A DNA stretch of 64,000 nucleotides from Clostridiales bacterium (GTDB taxonomy: Bacteria; Bacillota; Clostridia; Oscillospirales; Oscillospiraceae): NCBI GenBank assembly GCA_029008095.1, contig JAQXJB010000004.1:1-64000 (forward strand), in the 5' to 3' direction. A program made the translations under genes and the position numbers. Positions 42,847-63,980 of this stretch are shown piece after piece. Every line of letters starts with the position of its first letter. Within the stretch, counting starts at the first letter, position 1. The notes beneath the pieces are model-generated. The model saw only the letters and a program-made list of their open reading frames with translations, was not told the DNA's origin and did no database searches.

Positions 42847-42926
42847 TTAACGAGATAAAGTGCGCATTTTACATTCACAGCAATTATGTATCGAATACGA
42901 TATATGATTCTATAAGGAGGCAACAC

Positions 42927-44117
42927 ATGAAGATCACAAAGGTAGACGTATTTCAGTTTCGCTGTGACGTCCCCATACCCAACCGCCCCGTAGGCTGCCG
43001 CATCTACACCGATGAGGGCATTTACGGCGACGGCGAGGGCTCCATGTCCTATGGCACCGGCTCCGAGGCCGCGTTCGGCATGATCGAAGCTCTGGCAAAC
43101 ATGATCATCGGCATGGACCCCCTTGACAACGAGGTCATCTGGGACAAGATGCACCGCGGCACATTCTGGGGACAGAGCCCCGGACCCGCCGTTTTCTCCG
43201 GCATGAGCGCCATAGACATCGCCCTCTGGGATATCAAGGGCAAGGTCTGCAACATGCCCCTTTACCGCCTGCTGGGCGGTAAGCAGCGCAAGGATCTGCG
43301 CTGCTATGCCAGCCAGCTGCAGCACGGCTTCAAGGGCTATCACGATTTCGCTTTCACCACGGACAAGTACGAGGAGGTTTCCAAGTATGTGGTGGACGAG
43401 CTGGGCTATGACGCCATCAAGATAGACTTTCTCACCTTCGACCGCGACCCCTCCCGCCCCCTGGGCAACGAACAGCGCCGCGGCCCCATGAGCCCCTACT
43501 ACGTTCAGCTCGCCGAGGAACGCGTGGCCGCCGTCCGCGAGGCCGTTGGCCCCAACGTGGATATAATCGTGGAGAACCACTCCAACCTGGACGCTCTCTC
43601 CGCCGTTCAGCTCGCCCGCGCCATCGAAAAGTACAACATTTTCTTCTTTGAGGAGCCCAACACTCCCTCTCCCAAAACAGCCAAGTATATCCGCGAAAAT
43701 GTAAATATCCCCATCGCCAACGGCGAGCGCATATTCTCCCGCTGGCAGTATGTTCCCTACTTTGAGGATATGTCCATTCAGATCGCCCAGCCCGACCTGA
43801 CAAGCTGCGGCGGCCTGACCGAGGGCAAGAAGATATGCGACATGGCGCACACCTATGACGTGGCCGTTCAGGCTCACGTCTGCGGCACGCCCCTCTCCAC
43901 CGCCCTCTCCCTGCACCTTGAGTCCTCCATCCCCAACTTTATCATCCATGAGCAGCACTGCGTATGCCTGCATCAGTACATGAAGGATCTCTGCATTCAT
44001 GATTATCAGCCCGTGAACGGCCGCTTCGTAACTCCCGAGCTGCCCGGCATCGGCAACGAGTGGACAGAGAAAGCCATGACCGAGGCCCGCATGAAGAAAA
44101 CCGTCACCAAGGAATGA
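42927..44117 (+). CDS. Mandelate racemase/muconate lactonizing enzyme family protein (enolase superfamily, sugar-acid dehydratase-like)
   Basis: YTDEGIYGDGEGS, FFFEEPNTP, IANGERIFSRWQY, HVCGTPLSTA. Confidence 0.9.
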   Translation: MKITKVDVFQFRCDVPIPNRPVGCRIYTDEGIYGDGEGSMSYGTGSEAAFGMIEALANMIIGMDPLDNEVIWDKMHRGTFWGQSPGPAVFSGMSAIDIALWDIKGKVCNMPLYRLLGGKQRKDLRCYASQLQHGFKGYHDFAFTTDKYEEVSKYVVDELGYDAIKIDFLTFDRDPSRPLGNEQRRGPMSPYYVQLAEERVAAVREAVGPNVDIIVENHSNLDALSAVQLARAIEKYNIFFFEEPNTPSPKTAKYIRENVNIPIANGERIFSRWQYVPYFEDMSIQIAQPDLTSCGGLTEGKKICDMAHTYDVAVQAHVCGTPLSTALSLHLESSIPNFIIHEQHCVCLHQYMKDLCIHDYQPVNGRFVTPELPGIGNEWTEKAMTEARMKKTVTKE

Positions 44118-44158: not shown

Positions 44159-45901
44159 ATGAAGAAGCATTTAGCGCTTATCCTCGCACTTGTTTTCATT
44201 GTTGCCCTGTTCGCCGGCTGCGGCGGCACCAACAACAGCAACACTGACAACACCAACAGCACCAACAATAACACCACCAACACCAACAACAACACTCCTG
44301 ACGGCAACGATCAGGAGAACAGCCCCTACAAGTTCGCCGCCGGCAAGTTTGCCACCGACGAACGCGGCGTAGCCACCGAAAAGTATGACTACGAACTGCC
44401 TTTCTGCACCACTGATGAGACCCTTACCTTCTGGACTGTCAGCTGGAACCCCGAGTACATTCCCGCCGATGGTTTTGACTCCATGCCCTTCCCCAAGGAG
44501 CTGAAGGCTCAGACCGGCGTCAATGTAGAGTACACCATCGTTACCAGAGACGCCATGCAGTCCAACTTCGCCGTTCTTCTGGCCGCCGATGACCTCTGCG
44601 ACCTCATGTGCCACGGCGCAAGCTACTATTCCGGCACCGTCAAGGAATCCGTTGAGGAAGGCTATTTTGTCAACATCTATGATTATCGCGAGTACTGCCC
44701 CAACTATATGTACGAGGCTGCTTACCGCGACCCCGATGATAAGGCCACCTATGCCGACGTATTCTATGAGGACGATTTTGTTTATTCCTTCTGGGATCTT
44801 TATGACGGCAAGGTCGTCAGCATGGGTCCCGTTGTCCGCAACGACTGGGTCGAGCAGGTCGGCATGACCCGCGAGGGCATCAAGACCTGGGATGATGTCT
44901 ATGATATGATGGTCGCAGTCAAGAACGCCGGTCTCTCTACCGCCCCTTGGCAGCTTATCAGCACCATTGAGATCTCCGGCGCCAAAATTTTCAGTGCCTT
45001 TGATACCGTTGGCTATACCGACACTGCCTCTCTCCAGCAGCCCTATCAGATCAACGGAGAGGTTCAGCTGCTCCACTCCAACCAGAATGACCTTGACCTT
45101 GTCACCTATCTCAACAAGTGCTGGAACGCCGGTCTCATCGATCCTGACTGGGCCGGCTGCGCCGACAACAACGCCTACATTCCCAAGGTAGACAACTGCG
45201 GCTTCTTCGCCACCACCACCTCCGGCATCATGACCCTCGAGAGCAACGGCACCGATCCCAACGCTGAATGGGTTACCATCCAGAAGCTGCTCAAGACAGA
45301 AGACCAGGTTCTCCATGTTGGCGAGGCTGCTTCCCGTAAGTCCTACGGCGAGACAAGCGTCAGCGCAAGCTGCGAGAACATTCCTCTTGCCATTACCTGG
45401 TGCGACTTCCGTTATTCCGACGGAGCATACAACCTCATCAACTACGGCGTTCAGGGTCACACCTGGGATTACAACGAGAACGGCGAGATTCGCCTGACCG
45501 ACTTCGTTCTGAATAATCCCGACGGCCTGTCAGCCACCTGGTGCCTGCTGCTTCACGGCCTGAACAATCTGGCTGACTGCGGTCTTGAGGACAGTAACCG
45601 CAAGCTGGCCTACGAAGGCGGCAGCAAGTATGTTGAGTTCGGTCAGATTTGGACTCTCTTCCAGTATGACGGCGCTTACGAGTGGCCTGCCGGTCTGAAC
45701 CTCAGCGACGAGGATCAGCAGGAGGTCAATGAACTTGCCGGCGACGTAGTCACCTATATCTCCGAGAACTTCACCGCCTTTGTTGACAACTCCAAGTCTC
45801 TCACTGAGTGGGATTCCTATGCAGCAGGTCTTTCCTCCATCGGCGGCGATGCCATAAAGGCCATCTATCAGGATACCCTGGACGCTTACTACGCAGCATA
45901 A
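44159..45901 (+). CDS. Extracellular solute-binding lipoprotein (family 1/LipO-like)
   Basis: Lipobox LFAGCGG, Asn/Thr-rich linker, LTFWTVSWNPEYIP...LKAQTGVNVEY. Confidence 0.85.
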   Translation: MKKHLALILALVFIVALFAGCGGTNNSNTDNTNSTNNNTTNTNNNTPDGNDQENSPYKFAAGKFATDERGVATEKYDYELPFCTTDETLTFWTVSWNPEYIPADGFDSMPFPKELKAQTGVNVEYTIVTRDAMQSNFAVLLAADDLCDLMCHGASYYSGTVKESVEEGYFVNIYDYREYCPNYMYEAAYRDPDDKATYADVFYEDDFVYSFWDLYDGKVVSMGPVVRNDWVEQVGMTREGIKTWDDVYDMMVAVKNAGLSTAPWQLISTIEISGAKIFSAFDTVGYTDTASLQQPYQINGEVQLLHSNQNDLDLVTYLNKCWNAGLIDPDWAGCADNNAYIPKVDNCGFFATTTSGIMTLESNGTDPNAEWVTIQKLLKTEDQVLHVGEAASRKSYGETSVSASCENIPLAITWCDFRYSDGAYNLINYGVQGHTWDYNENGEIRLTDFVLNNPDGLSATWCLLLHGLNNLADCGLEDSNRKLAYEGGSKYVEFGQIWTLFQYDGAYEWPAGLNLSDEDQQEVNELAGDVVTYISENFTAFVDNSKSLTEWDSYAAGLSSIGGDAIKAIYQDTLDAYYAA

Positions 45902-46139: not shown

Positions 46140-47324
46140 ATGAAAATAACAAAGGTTGAACTTTTTCTCTTCCACTGCGACACCACCGCTCCCGCAAAGC
46201 CTGTCGGCATACGCATGTATACCGACGAGGGCATTTACGGCGACGGCGAAGCCTCCATGTCCTACGGCAACGGAGCCGAGGGCGCATACGGCATGCTGGA
46301 AAGCCTCATTCCCCTGGTTCTGGGCATGAATCCTCTGGCCAACGAGGTCATCTGGGACAAGCTGCACAAGACCACCTTCTGGGGACAGAGCCCCGGCCCC
46401 GCCGTGTTCTCCGCCATGAGCGCCATAGACATCGCCCTCTGGGACATCAAGGGCAAGTATTACAACACTCCCCTGTATAATCTCCTCGGCGGCAAGTTCC
46501 GTAATGAGCTTCGCTGCTACGCCAGCCAGCTCCAGCTTGGCTGGGGCGCCGAGTATAATATGGCCTTCTCCAACGAGGATTACGCAGCTATGGCCAAAAA
46601 AGCCGTGGCTGACGGCTATGACGCCATCAAGGTCGACTTCACCTGCTTCGGAAGCGGTCCCCAGGACAGGATATCCCATCTCCAGCGCTCCGGACTGCTG
46701 GCCCCCAAAATGCTCAAGCTCATTGAAGGCCGCGTCGCCGCAACCCGCGAGGCAGTGGGTGAGGACGTGGACATTATCATAGAGAATCACTCCGGTCTGG
46801 ACGCGCTCTCCGCCGTTCAGATAGCCGAGGCAGTGGAGAAATACAACATTTTCTTCTTCGAGGAGCCCAACACTCCCTCCCCCAAGACGGCCAAGTGGAT
46901 AAGCGAGCGCACCCGCATCCCCATAGCAAACGGCGAACGCATCTTCTCCCGCTGGCAGTATTTCCCCTATTTTGAGGACATGTCCCTGCAGGTAGCCCAG
47001 CCTGACCTGACAAGCTGCGGCGGCGTGACCGAGGGCAAGAAAATATGCGACATGGCTCACGCCTATGACGTTTCCGTCCAGCTCCATGTCTGCGGCACGC
47101 CCCTTTCCACCGCCCTCTCCCTGCATCTGGAGTCTTCCATTCCCAACTTCGTGATTCATGAGCACCATGTAAACAATCTCCACGACCACATCAAGGATCT
47201 CTGCATCTACGATTACCAGCCCGTTAACGGCGTTTACACCGTGCCTGATCTTCCCGGAATCGGCAACGAGTGGAGCGAGAAGGCTCTCGCCACTCCCGAC
47301 CGGAAGAGCGTATTTGAACTCTGA
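46140..47324 (+). CDS. Mandelate racemase/muconate lactonizing enzyme family protein (paralog of 42927..44117)
   Basis: Same motifs; nearly identical blocks at protein and DNA level. Confidence 0.9.
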   Translation: MKITKVELFLFHCDTTAPAKPVGIRMYTDEGIYGDGEASMSYGNGAEGAYGMLESLIPLVLGMNPLANEVIWDKLHKTTFWGQSPGPAVFSAMSAIDIALWDIKGKYYNTPLYNLLGGKFRNELRCYASQLQLGWGAEYNMAFSNEDYAAMAKKAVADGYDAIKVDFTCFGSGPQDRISHLQRSGLLAPKMLKLIEGRVAATREAVGEDVDIIIENHSGLDALSAVQIAEAVEKYNIFFFEEPNTPSPKTAKWISERTRIPIANGERIFSRWQYFPYFEDMSLQVAQPDLTSCGGVTEGKKICDMAHAYDVSVQLHVCGTPLSTALSLHLESSIPNFVIHEHHVNNLHDHIKDLCIYDYQPVNGVYTVPDLPGIGNEWSEKALATPDRKSVFEL

Positions 47325-62103: not shown

Positions 62104-62134
62104 ATTGTAATATATTGGGGGGAGCCATTACAAT
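62104..62134. promoter_or_regulatory. Inverted repeat ATTGTAAT-N15-ATTACAAT upstream of cysK
   Basis: Perfect 8-bp arms 62104-62111 / 62127-62134. Confidence 0.5.
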
Positions 62135-62195
62135 AAAAAAAAGAAATGACCCTTGACTGATCGTCTTTCAACTTTCTCAGTCAAGGGTCATTTCT
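62135..62195 (-). terminator. Strong intrinsic terminator
   Basis: GAAATGACCCTTGACTGA / TCAGTCAAGGGTCATTTC 18-bp perfect stem, 17-nt loop, T8. Confidence 0.9.
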
Positions 62196-62516
62196 GTGAA
62201 TTCTTGATATCTAACATCTTTGATTAACCTCTCTTTCTGCGGATTTGAGACTTCGTTTTCTCGCCGGTCTGTTCGTTTTCCGTCTTTGTTTTATGCTCTC
62301 TGTGGCATAATTTCTCTTATGCGAGAATAGGCTTATCGGAATTCTGGCTCTTACTCAGTCTCGCTGCTCTCGGCTTTTTCACTCAGGTCAGTTGATTTCT
62401 CACCTCAAATATTCGGTTGGATTTTTACCCTCCCAGGGGTCTCTATATTAAATTTTCCTGAGCTTTTTCGCTTTGAGCCTTTGGCTGTTACCGGAACATT
62501 GGTATCACCCTTTCTT
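62135..62516 (-). ncRNA. Candidate structured ncRNA or cysK leader (~380 nt), family unknown
   Basis: Promoter TTGCCA-N17-TATCTT (62551 to 62523, minus), no substantial ORF, many local hairpins with A-rich loops, ends in 18-bp perfect stem plus U8. Confidence 0.6.
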
Positions 62517-62522
62517 GCTTAT

Positions 62523-62551
62523 AAGATAGCATAAAAATTGCCCCTTGGCAA
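62523..62551 (-). promoter_or_regulatory. Sigma-A-like promoter for the candidate ncRNA
   Basis: TTGCCA-N17-TATCTT on minus strand; -35 overlaps TTGCC-AAGG-GGCAA dyad. Confidence 0.55.
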
Positions 62552-62662
62552 TACGCTTTTTATACAAAACTCACAATTTTTCTTTGTGTAATTCATAGAT
62601 TTACTGGCAATTATGTTTAAAACCATTGACTTTGACAGTGTAATTTGGTATGATAGATATGT

Positions 62663-62690
62663 TGGGCGCGCCGCAACTGCGGCGCGCCCG
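62663..62690. terminator. GC-rich hairpin after zinc-ribbon gene
   Basis: gggcgcgccgca-ac-tgcggcgcgccc. Confidence 0.6.
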
Positions 62691-62696
62691 TTCTGT

Positions 62697-63980
62697 TTAA
62701 AACTCTATTTTGCGTCTGCCTCCGTCCTTGAGGCTTATCTTATACCACACGCCGGGCTCGCTGCCCCGGCAGTCCAGATAGAAATAATCCCCCAGAACCG
62801 CGCCGCCGTCCCAATAATTGCCCTCACCCAGATCTACCCGTCTGCCGTCGGCGTGGAGCGCGGTCCAGCGTCCGGGAGGGCCATAGGTGAAGCCAACGGC
62901 CCGGCTGCCGTCGAAATATTCCCGGAAGTTCTCGGTGGGGTCGATATCGCCCAGGATCCACTTCCCTCCATAAGGCTGCAGGCCGCCCGCGCCGCCGTCA
63001 TAAAGGCCGGTGCGGTACACCCGGCGGGTGAGATTTTCCGTTCCGCCATCGTCCAGCGCCGCGTATATCACGCCCTCGCTGAAATCGATGAAGGGGATAT
63101 ACTTCCAGCAGAAATCGCCGCGCTCTTCCGGGCTTTCGCCCAATTCAACGCCCAGGCCGGCGGCCATGAGCGGCAACTGCGCTCCGAGAGCATCGGCGGC
63201 GGGCGTCACCGTTCCGCCGGCGTCAATGATAAGCACGCCGCGCTTGCACTTACTGTCCTGACAAACCATATAAAGACTGCTCCGACCAGCGCCGCGAAGA
63301 ATGAAATCCTCGCCGCGCCATAGCTCCCGCAGGCCGCTGCCGTCATGGCCGCAGACCATAAGGCTCACCTTATCCGCCATGCGGCGGGAATTATACGCGA
63401 ACAGGAATATTTTTTCCTCGGTGACGATAAAGCGCTCCATTTCGCCGTATTCTTTCCCGCTTATGTCCAGCGCCACGCTGAAGCCCCCGGCAGGAGTATA
63501 GGTATAGAGCCGATAGACCCGGGCTGTATTTCCGCCGCAGTCCACCATAGCGGAAAGCCATAGCCTTCCGTTTTTCCAAAGCTTGCCGCAAAATGCAAGC
63601 ACTCCCTCCGGCAGACCAATACGCTCGGCCTTCACGCCCTCCGCGTCCACCCGGAAAAGCTCCCTGCCGTATTCGGTGCTGAGATAATGCCCCTCCGGCG
63701 ACCCCGCGCCCACGGAAAAGATGCTCCGCGCATCCCAGAGAGCCGCGAAGCTCTGCCACGCCGGGTATTCGTCAGCGGCAGCGGGAATGGGCGCGGGCTT
63801 CGCCGCCGGTACCTCCGCGGATTTCACCGCCGCGCCGCAGGCGATACAGAACCTGTCCCCCGCCTCCAGCTTTTCTCCGCATTGGGCGCAAACTATATCT
63901 TTCTCCACAGCCGCGCCGCACTGAGCGCAGAACCGCGCGCCCTCCCGCAGAGCCGTGCCGCAGCTTTTGCAATTTGCCAT
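62697..63980 (-). CDS. Multi-zinc-ribbon protein with DUF5050-like beta-propeller-type C-terminus
   Basis: CKSCGTALREGARFCAQCG, CAQCGEKLEAGDRFCIACG zinc ribbons followed by repeated beta-rich segments. Confidence 0.75.
   Translation of the reverse strand: MANCKSCGTALREGARFCAQCGAAVEKDIVCAQCGEKLEAGDRFCIACGAAVKSAEVPAAKPAPIPAAADEYPAWQSFAALWDARSIFSVGAGSPEGHYLSTEYGRELFRVDAEGVKAERIGLPEGVLAFCGKLWKNGRLWLSAMVDCGGNTARVYRLYTYTPAGGFSVALDISGKEYGEMERFIVTEEKIFLFAYNSRRMADKVSLMVCGHDGSGLRELWRGEDFILRGAGRSSLYMVCQDSKCKRGVLIIDAGGTVTPAADALGAQLPLMAAGLGVELGESPEERGDFCWKYIPFIDFSEGVIYAALDDGGTENLTRRVYRTGLYDGGAGGLQPYGGKWILGDIDPTENFREYFDGSRAVGFTYGPPGRWTALHADGRRVDLGEGNYWDGGAVLGDYFYLDCRGSEPGVWYKISLKDGGRRKIEF

Follow-up and report, generated by a model that had tools for sequence, protein, structure and literature searches.

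The gap upstream of cysK in a 64,000-nucleotide stretch of DNA from a Clostridiales bacterium (the window) raises the question whether the structured region on its minus strand is an RNA gene of its own or a leader through which a terminator controls cysK, the gene for a PLP-dependent enzyme. A preliminary description of the window left both readings side by side. Here, we compare the locus with its relatives, and ask what such an RNA might do.

Anatomy of the RNA unit

The whole unit occupies positions 62551-62135 of the minus strand, between a gene for a zinc-ribbon protein (62697-63980) and cysK. Its main promoter, TTGCCA-N17-TATCTT (62523-62551, minus strand), has the -35 element at 62551-62546 and the -10 element, extended by a TG, at 62528-62523, and matches in position the family consensus TTGnAAAA...TATATTATAG. 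The predicted RNA of about 380 nt (62135-62516, minus strand) has a start placed from the -10 element and ends with the U tract, and both ends are conserved among relatives. For the terminator (62135-62195, minus strand), positions 62195-62177 pair with 62160-62142 and are followed by U8 ending at 62135. The stem, described before as a perfect 18-bp helix, is indeed perfect and reaches 19 bp when the terminal A-U pair is counted. Promoter, A/G-rich short helices, GCATAA hairpin and strong stem with U8 were all found as the preliminary description had them, and the minus-strand RNA region also contains two copies of GAAAACGA. The region as a whole folds 4.2 standard deviations better than dinucleotide shuffles, an excess owed mainly to the terminator; for the interior by itself, the folding z is -2.1.

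Two details of the earlier picture have to be revised. The gap, then read as being without a substantial ORF, carries two micro-ORFs. The suggested closing helix UGAUACC/GGUUAAUCA is unsupported because its 5' partner changes among relatives (GAUACC, GAGUCC or GAUUCC) while the 3' partner AGAGAGGU stays nearly invariant.

Relatives and distribution

A comparison with Rfam had been proposed together with the candidate; run on the window with the covariance models of Rfam 15 (4227 families) at the gathering cut-off, it matched no known family. Lax limits added nothing but animal microRNA noise on the terminator stem, and 20 loci with relatives gave only tRNAs, in one locus and away from the RNA. 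Literature searches for the peptide of the second micro-ORF or for the DNA motif returned nothing relevant. The RNA family belongs to none of the families tested and is absent from Rfam and the searchable papers.

More than 140 relatives were gathered from Oscillospirales and neighbouring orders. BLASTN with the genomes of 98 relatives revealed two conserved blocks, one per end, and an interior that is not conserved. For the 3' block, a search pattern was used that fixed ATG-YTA-GAT-A, and neither the rest of the frame nor the stop; part of the base-level conservation in this block was thus demanded by the pattern. More than 119 stretches in genome contigs are among the matches listed, and all but one of these come from gut or rumen Clostridia, nearly all uncultured (Oscillospiraceae and other Clostridia). 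A match in Motilimonas was regarded as chance. A covariance model built from the 3' module (R1) was run over genome samples and matched in 34 of the 121 family genomes, in 45 of 299 from the order and in 8 of 293 from the class, counts that are lower bounds because the model ran with strict filters; in a phylum-wide sample of 250, it matched the window's own genome alone. Phage records gave no meaningful match to the RNA unit. Genomes carry one to four copies, sometimes in tandem. A weak second model match in the window's genome (contig C26, E = 0.003) covers the end of a coding region together with its terminator, lacks the micro-ORF and was treated as chance.

The relatives share a common layout of a phased divergent-promoter region, a 5' micro-ORF, a fast-evolving folded interior, a 3' micro-ORF and the terminator. 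The occurrence of more than 140 of them in unrelated gene neighbourhoods strongly supports an independent structured RNA that has promoter and terminator of its own, as first proposed for this gap. Judged by these sequence comparisons, the minus-strand unit is very probably an RNA gene that stands alone and represents a new family, with the anatomy described here. This adds an RNA gene family to a large share of the gut microbiota that is for the most part uncultured. Since its micro-ORFs of 3 and 9 codons fall below most annotation lengths, gene finders and RNA surveys would miss it.

Relation to cysK and genomic position

The idea of a terminator-controlled cysK leader draws on the position of cysK, 60-70 nt downstream on the same strand. 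In the relatives, the RNA lies upstream of unrelated genes, and of 113 copies, 69 have a convergent and 44 a co-directional downstream ORF. Clustering of the neighbour proteins of about 130 loci showed no family adjoining the RNA beyond 12 loci. With a convergent majority downstream and no recurring neighbour family, the RNA is therefore not a leader; the co-directional regulated gene directly downstream that marks a cis-acting leader or attenuator is not a feature of the family. Furthermore, cysK has a promoter outside the RNA unit, TTGTAA-N18-TACAAT (62104-62133, minus strand), where the preliminary description had seen no good one between terminator and gene. It is conserved in two congeners (G001, G002) that keep cysK without an RNA there. 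We reject the leader as the function of the family and consider it highly improbable as an explanation here; in this one genome, read-through may still affect cysK locally. The cysK promoter sits inside an inverted repeat, TTGTAAT...ATTACAA, which is conserved in both congeners and is possibly an operator.

The same congeners show what an empty site looks like: their zinc-ribbon gene and cysK are 91 and 72 bp apart, and they carry their own RNA unit beside an acetyltransferase gene. At this acetyltransferase site, the window's genome (locus L222, contig C19) has no RNA and a divergent-promoter-like remnant, TTGACT-N17-TATATT, with an ATTAGGGTCGC hairpin, which suggests that the RNA was lost there. 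Flanking genes were compared within 12 genera: copies share none in 9 of them, occupy the same place at least in part in two, and share only the upstream side in one.

Empty site, unshared flanks, tandem copies and the patchy distribution would all be expected if the unit were a non-autonomous mobile element with the RNA as cargo and the end hairpins as transposition signals. However, target duplications, terminal repeats or a linked transposase were not seen at the inspected junctions or among the neighbours, so insertion and rapid loss both fit, and differential loss after rearrangement would look alike. Besides, both ends read as ordinary terminators, and the conserved DNA lies between the promoters and not at the ends. 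We regard such an element as rather unlikely; it would be compatible with the dual-function RNA that we favour below.

Two observations stand apart from this. In another genome (locus L227; genome G053, contig C51), about 0.5 kb separates a copy of the RNA from a convergently oriented gene that resembles cysteine synthase, probably by coincidence. Elsewhere in the window, two genes of the mandelate-racemase/enolase superfamily (Pfam MR_MLE; 42903-44117 and 46140-47324, plus strand) flank an ORF of 580 amino acids (44159-45901); the pair looks like a duplicated sugar-acid dehydratase locus.

A micro-ORF that ends in the terminator

The second micro-ORF (62188-62217, minus strand) reads M-L-D-I-K-N-S-Q-K-stop and follows a Shine-Dalgarno sequence, AGAAAGAGAGGT (62227-62238, minus strand), that was located by family alignment. 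Its last codons and its stop fall inside the terminator. The 3' block of the family consists of the Shine-Dalgarno sequence AGAGAGGU and M-L-D-[T/I/N]-K-x-x-[Q/E]-K with a stop, and the overall pattern, M-L-D-x-K-x-x-x-K (MLDIKNSQK in the window), was collected from 142 distinct copies. In 139 of these the frame closes after 8 or 9 codons, with the stop in the stem base of the terminator. Nine codons were found in 127 copies and eight in 12, whereas three run on in another frame; a length change thus amounts to exactly one codon in 12 copies and to another number of bases in only 3.

The stem itself is well supported by covariation, with 95.9% of cells paired compared to 80.5% after shuffling, 156 double changes compared to 40, and changes on both sides in 17 of the 18 modelled pairs. 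Under this covarying stem, the 126 aligned nine-codon copies use three alternative stops (60 TGA, 51 TAA, 15 TAG). TGG, which the stem would tolerate equally, was never seen at the stop position, where about 7 cases were expected from the observed base frequencies. Codon 3 is invariably Asp and codon 5 invariably Lys (AAG or AAA). The excess of silent changes in codons 5-9 of near-neighbour copies is weak (20/67, 0.30, with 0.20 expected), and predicted folds do not leave the start codon clearly unpaired (mean 0.45). The frame is retained in variants whose body differs (MIEPIHFVK, MIEPKHFEK, MTDFKTEQR). A sub-type in loci L022 and L025 reads M-I-E-P-x-H-F-x-K, with an otherwise identical layout.

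A purely noncoding RNA, in which the ATG...stop frames are RNA motifs that read as ORFs by accident, would account for the base-level conservation of AGAAAGAGAGGT and ATGTTAGAT in the 3' block, which was partly demanded by the search pattern. It does not fit with the codon-sized length changes, the choice among three stops that spares TGG, the invariant Lys and Asp codons and the frame kept by variants with a different body. We therefore consider the noncoding alternative improbable and, from these patterns in the sequence, micro-ORF 2 as in all likelihood translated.

The 5' block and the folded interior

Micro-ORF 1 (62488-62499, minus strand) is ATG TTC CGG TAA (M-F-R-stop) with AGAAAGGG 5' of it. 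In most of 85 readable copies, the 5' block of the family runs from AGAAAGGGUGAUACCAAUG through one or two codons to a stop; the usual micro-ORF is AUG, two codons and a stop, and a start with its stop at codon 3 or 4 recurs in most readable copies. This Shine-Dalgarno sequence with its few codons probably serves to load a ribosome and would shield the end of the RNA. In two copies (L102, L148), the 5' block, Shine-Dalgarno sequence and ATG TAC ... stop, is duplicated in tandem. A stem between micro-ORF 1 (UACAGG) and CCUGUA ahead of the second Shine-Dalgarno sequence, suggested by the short copies, was discarded, as matched copies pair no better than shuffled ones.

The purine-rich interior (62242-62487, minus strand) evolves fast; its length among relatives ranges from 7 to about 550 nt and is mostly 100-250. 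Compared to dinucleotide shuffles, the interiors of 98 copies have a mean folding z of -1.9. No consensus fold emerged when whole interiors were aligned with MAFFT, and the hairpin UUCUC-GCAUAA-GAGAA (62312-62327, minus strand), which recurs in relatives, was therefore tested by motif and position. The family motif YYC-GCUUA(A)-GRR occurs in 40 of 140 relatives within a span of 30 nt that lies upstream of the second Shine-Dalgarno sequence, as against 0.23 in shuffles. The stem sequences of this GCUUA-loop hairpin differ among copies, and its distance to the second Shine-Dalgarno sequence is fixed. An outer stem that encloses the hairpin (62278-62341, minus strand; UUCCG at 62341-62337, CGGAA at 62282-62278) was predicted and compared by eye: in several relatives its sequence varies and the pairing is kept. 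In a few relatives the interior is nearly absent (7-34 nt), and the fold is therefore not needed everywhere.

This last point could speak for a small mRNA, with the nine-residue peptide as product, perhaps a leaderless signal or an inhibitor, and the interior as untranslated region. The peptide block is the best-conserved part, the interior varies or is nearly absent, and peptide positions 4, 6, 7 and 8 vary like a code. On the other hand, interiors fold better than chance and the hairpin recurs, and the peptide is hydrophilic, without a receptor gene as regular neighbour; a peptide alone also leaves the position of the stop in the terminator stem unexplained. On balance, a small mRNA seems rather unlikely to us, and we take the body as a fast-evolving fold that is probably the trans-acting part.

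Divergent promoter and putative operators

Upstream of the main promoter, the plus strand carries a divergent promoter, TTGACT-N17-TATGAT (62626-62654), which has a helically phased counterpart in 54 of 101 copies and none in shuffles. The family form is TTGACA-N17/18-TATAAT, with the transcript starting near (U)GUUGGG and a hairpin soon after. In the window, the predicted start GTTGGG, a 12-bp G+C hairpin and a weak U tract (62661-62698, plus strand) would give a short RNA or a leader. Distances between divergent and main promoter cluster at about 65, 75 and 85 bp, i.e. at helical turns. Pairing of the GUUGG of the divergent RNA with CCAAU at start codons, noted by eye, was dismissed as too short and broken by CCGAUG variants.

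Two operator-like sites lie between the promoters (62560-62592), ATTACACAA at 62592-62584 and TTTGTATAA at 62568-62560, with the family consensus TTTG[CT]ACAA. Counted from the -35 element, 31 and 27 of 72 promoters carry a site at -42 and -18, respectively, where 0.8 and 0.5 are expected by chance. These paired sites form a shared putative operator upstream of dispersed RNA genes, as in csRNA regulons. A transcription factor probably binds them, and it looks as if one regulator controls both promoters. A search for the sites outside the RNA promoters indicated no regulator gene.

Proposed function and comparison with known systems

Taken together, the sequence evidence makes a stand-alone dual-function RNA the probable explanation, i.e. 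a folded RNA that also carries a translated micro-ORF and in which translation would be coupled to the RNA's 3' hairpin. The main promoter would produce the folded RNA of about 380 nt, and micro-ORF 2 at its 3' end would be translated into a hydrophilic peptide of nine residues. A ribosome at a stop codon covers about ten bases beyond it, which here is most of the 5' arm of the stem. As the stop is built into the stem base, the finishing ribosome would have to melt this base, and translation and the formation or persistence of the 3' hairpin should therefore be coupled. The ribosome could hold up termination or, by opening the hairpin, give access to decay, and the amount of RNA or its 3' end would then report how well the RNA is translated; the peptide itself may or may not matter. 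That this coupling is the purpose of the layout is a tentative proposal, somewhat more doubtful than not. A bolder version, in which the units are roaming cassettes that sense their own translation, with RNA length or lifetime as readout of a ribosome-opened terminator or 3' hairpin, and are moved as whole units between genomic sites, we consider unlikely. In any case, the near-invariant stop within the terminator stem offers a natural test of how translation and intrinsic termination act on each other.

Leader-peptide attenuators of the tna, trp or erm type contain a short ORF positioned so that its translation interferes with a terminator. The unit resembles them in the short ORF set against a terminator, but has no regulated downstream gene, the downstream ORF being convergent in most copies. 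Overall, the unit appears to work most like a dual-function small RNA, with a multiplicity reminiscent of csRNAs. Like the CiaR-dependent csRNAs of streptococci, it occurs as several stand-alone RNA genes in one genome, each with a promoter and a terminator, and has putative sites for a shared regulator upstream; csRNAs are reported as noncoding (PMC8186281, PMC4507080), whereas the unit has two micro-ORFs and a divergent promoter. VcdRP of Vibrio cholerae is a small transcript that acts both as RNA regulator and as template for a small protein, the 29-residue VcdP (PMC8672173). The same double use, as folded RNA and peptide template, is proposed here from the sequence, with a much shorter peptide of 8-9 residues and a stop embedded in the terminator. 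Leaderless communication peptides are strongly hydrophobic and encoded beside a RopB-type receptor gene (PMC10518010). Their ORFs of 8-10 codons are as small, have their own ribosome site and a divergent arrangement, yet we judge the two alike in size only: the M-L-D-x-K-x-x-x-K peptide is hydrophilic, and clustering of the neighbour proteins showed no constant neighbour gene that could be a RopB-type receptor.

The proposed coupling is testable since an isolated carrier exists, Vescimonas fastidiosa MM35, in which the unit lies upstream of spoVAC on the 861-kb replicon pMM35_01. This copy (locus L195, NZ_AP023416.1 61234-69278) is unannotated and located between a TetR regulator gene and spoVAC, and its micro-ORFs read MT and MMLDIKSEG.
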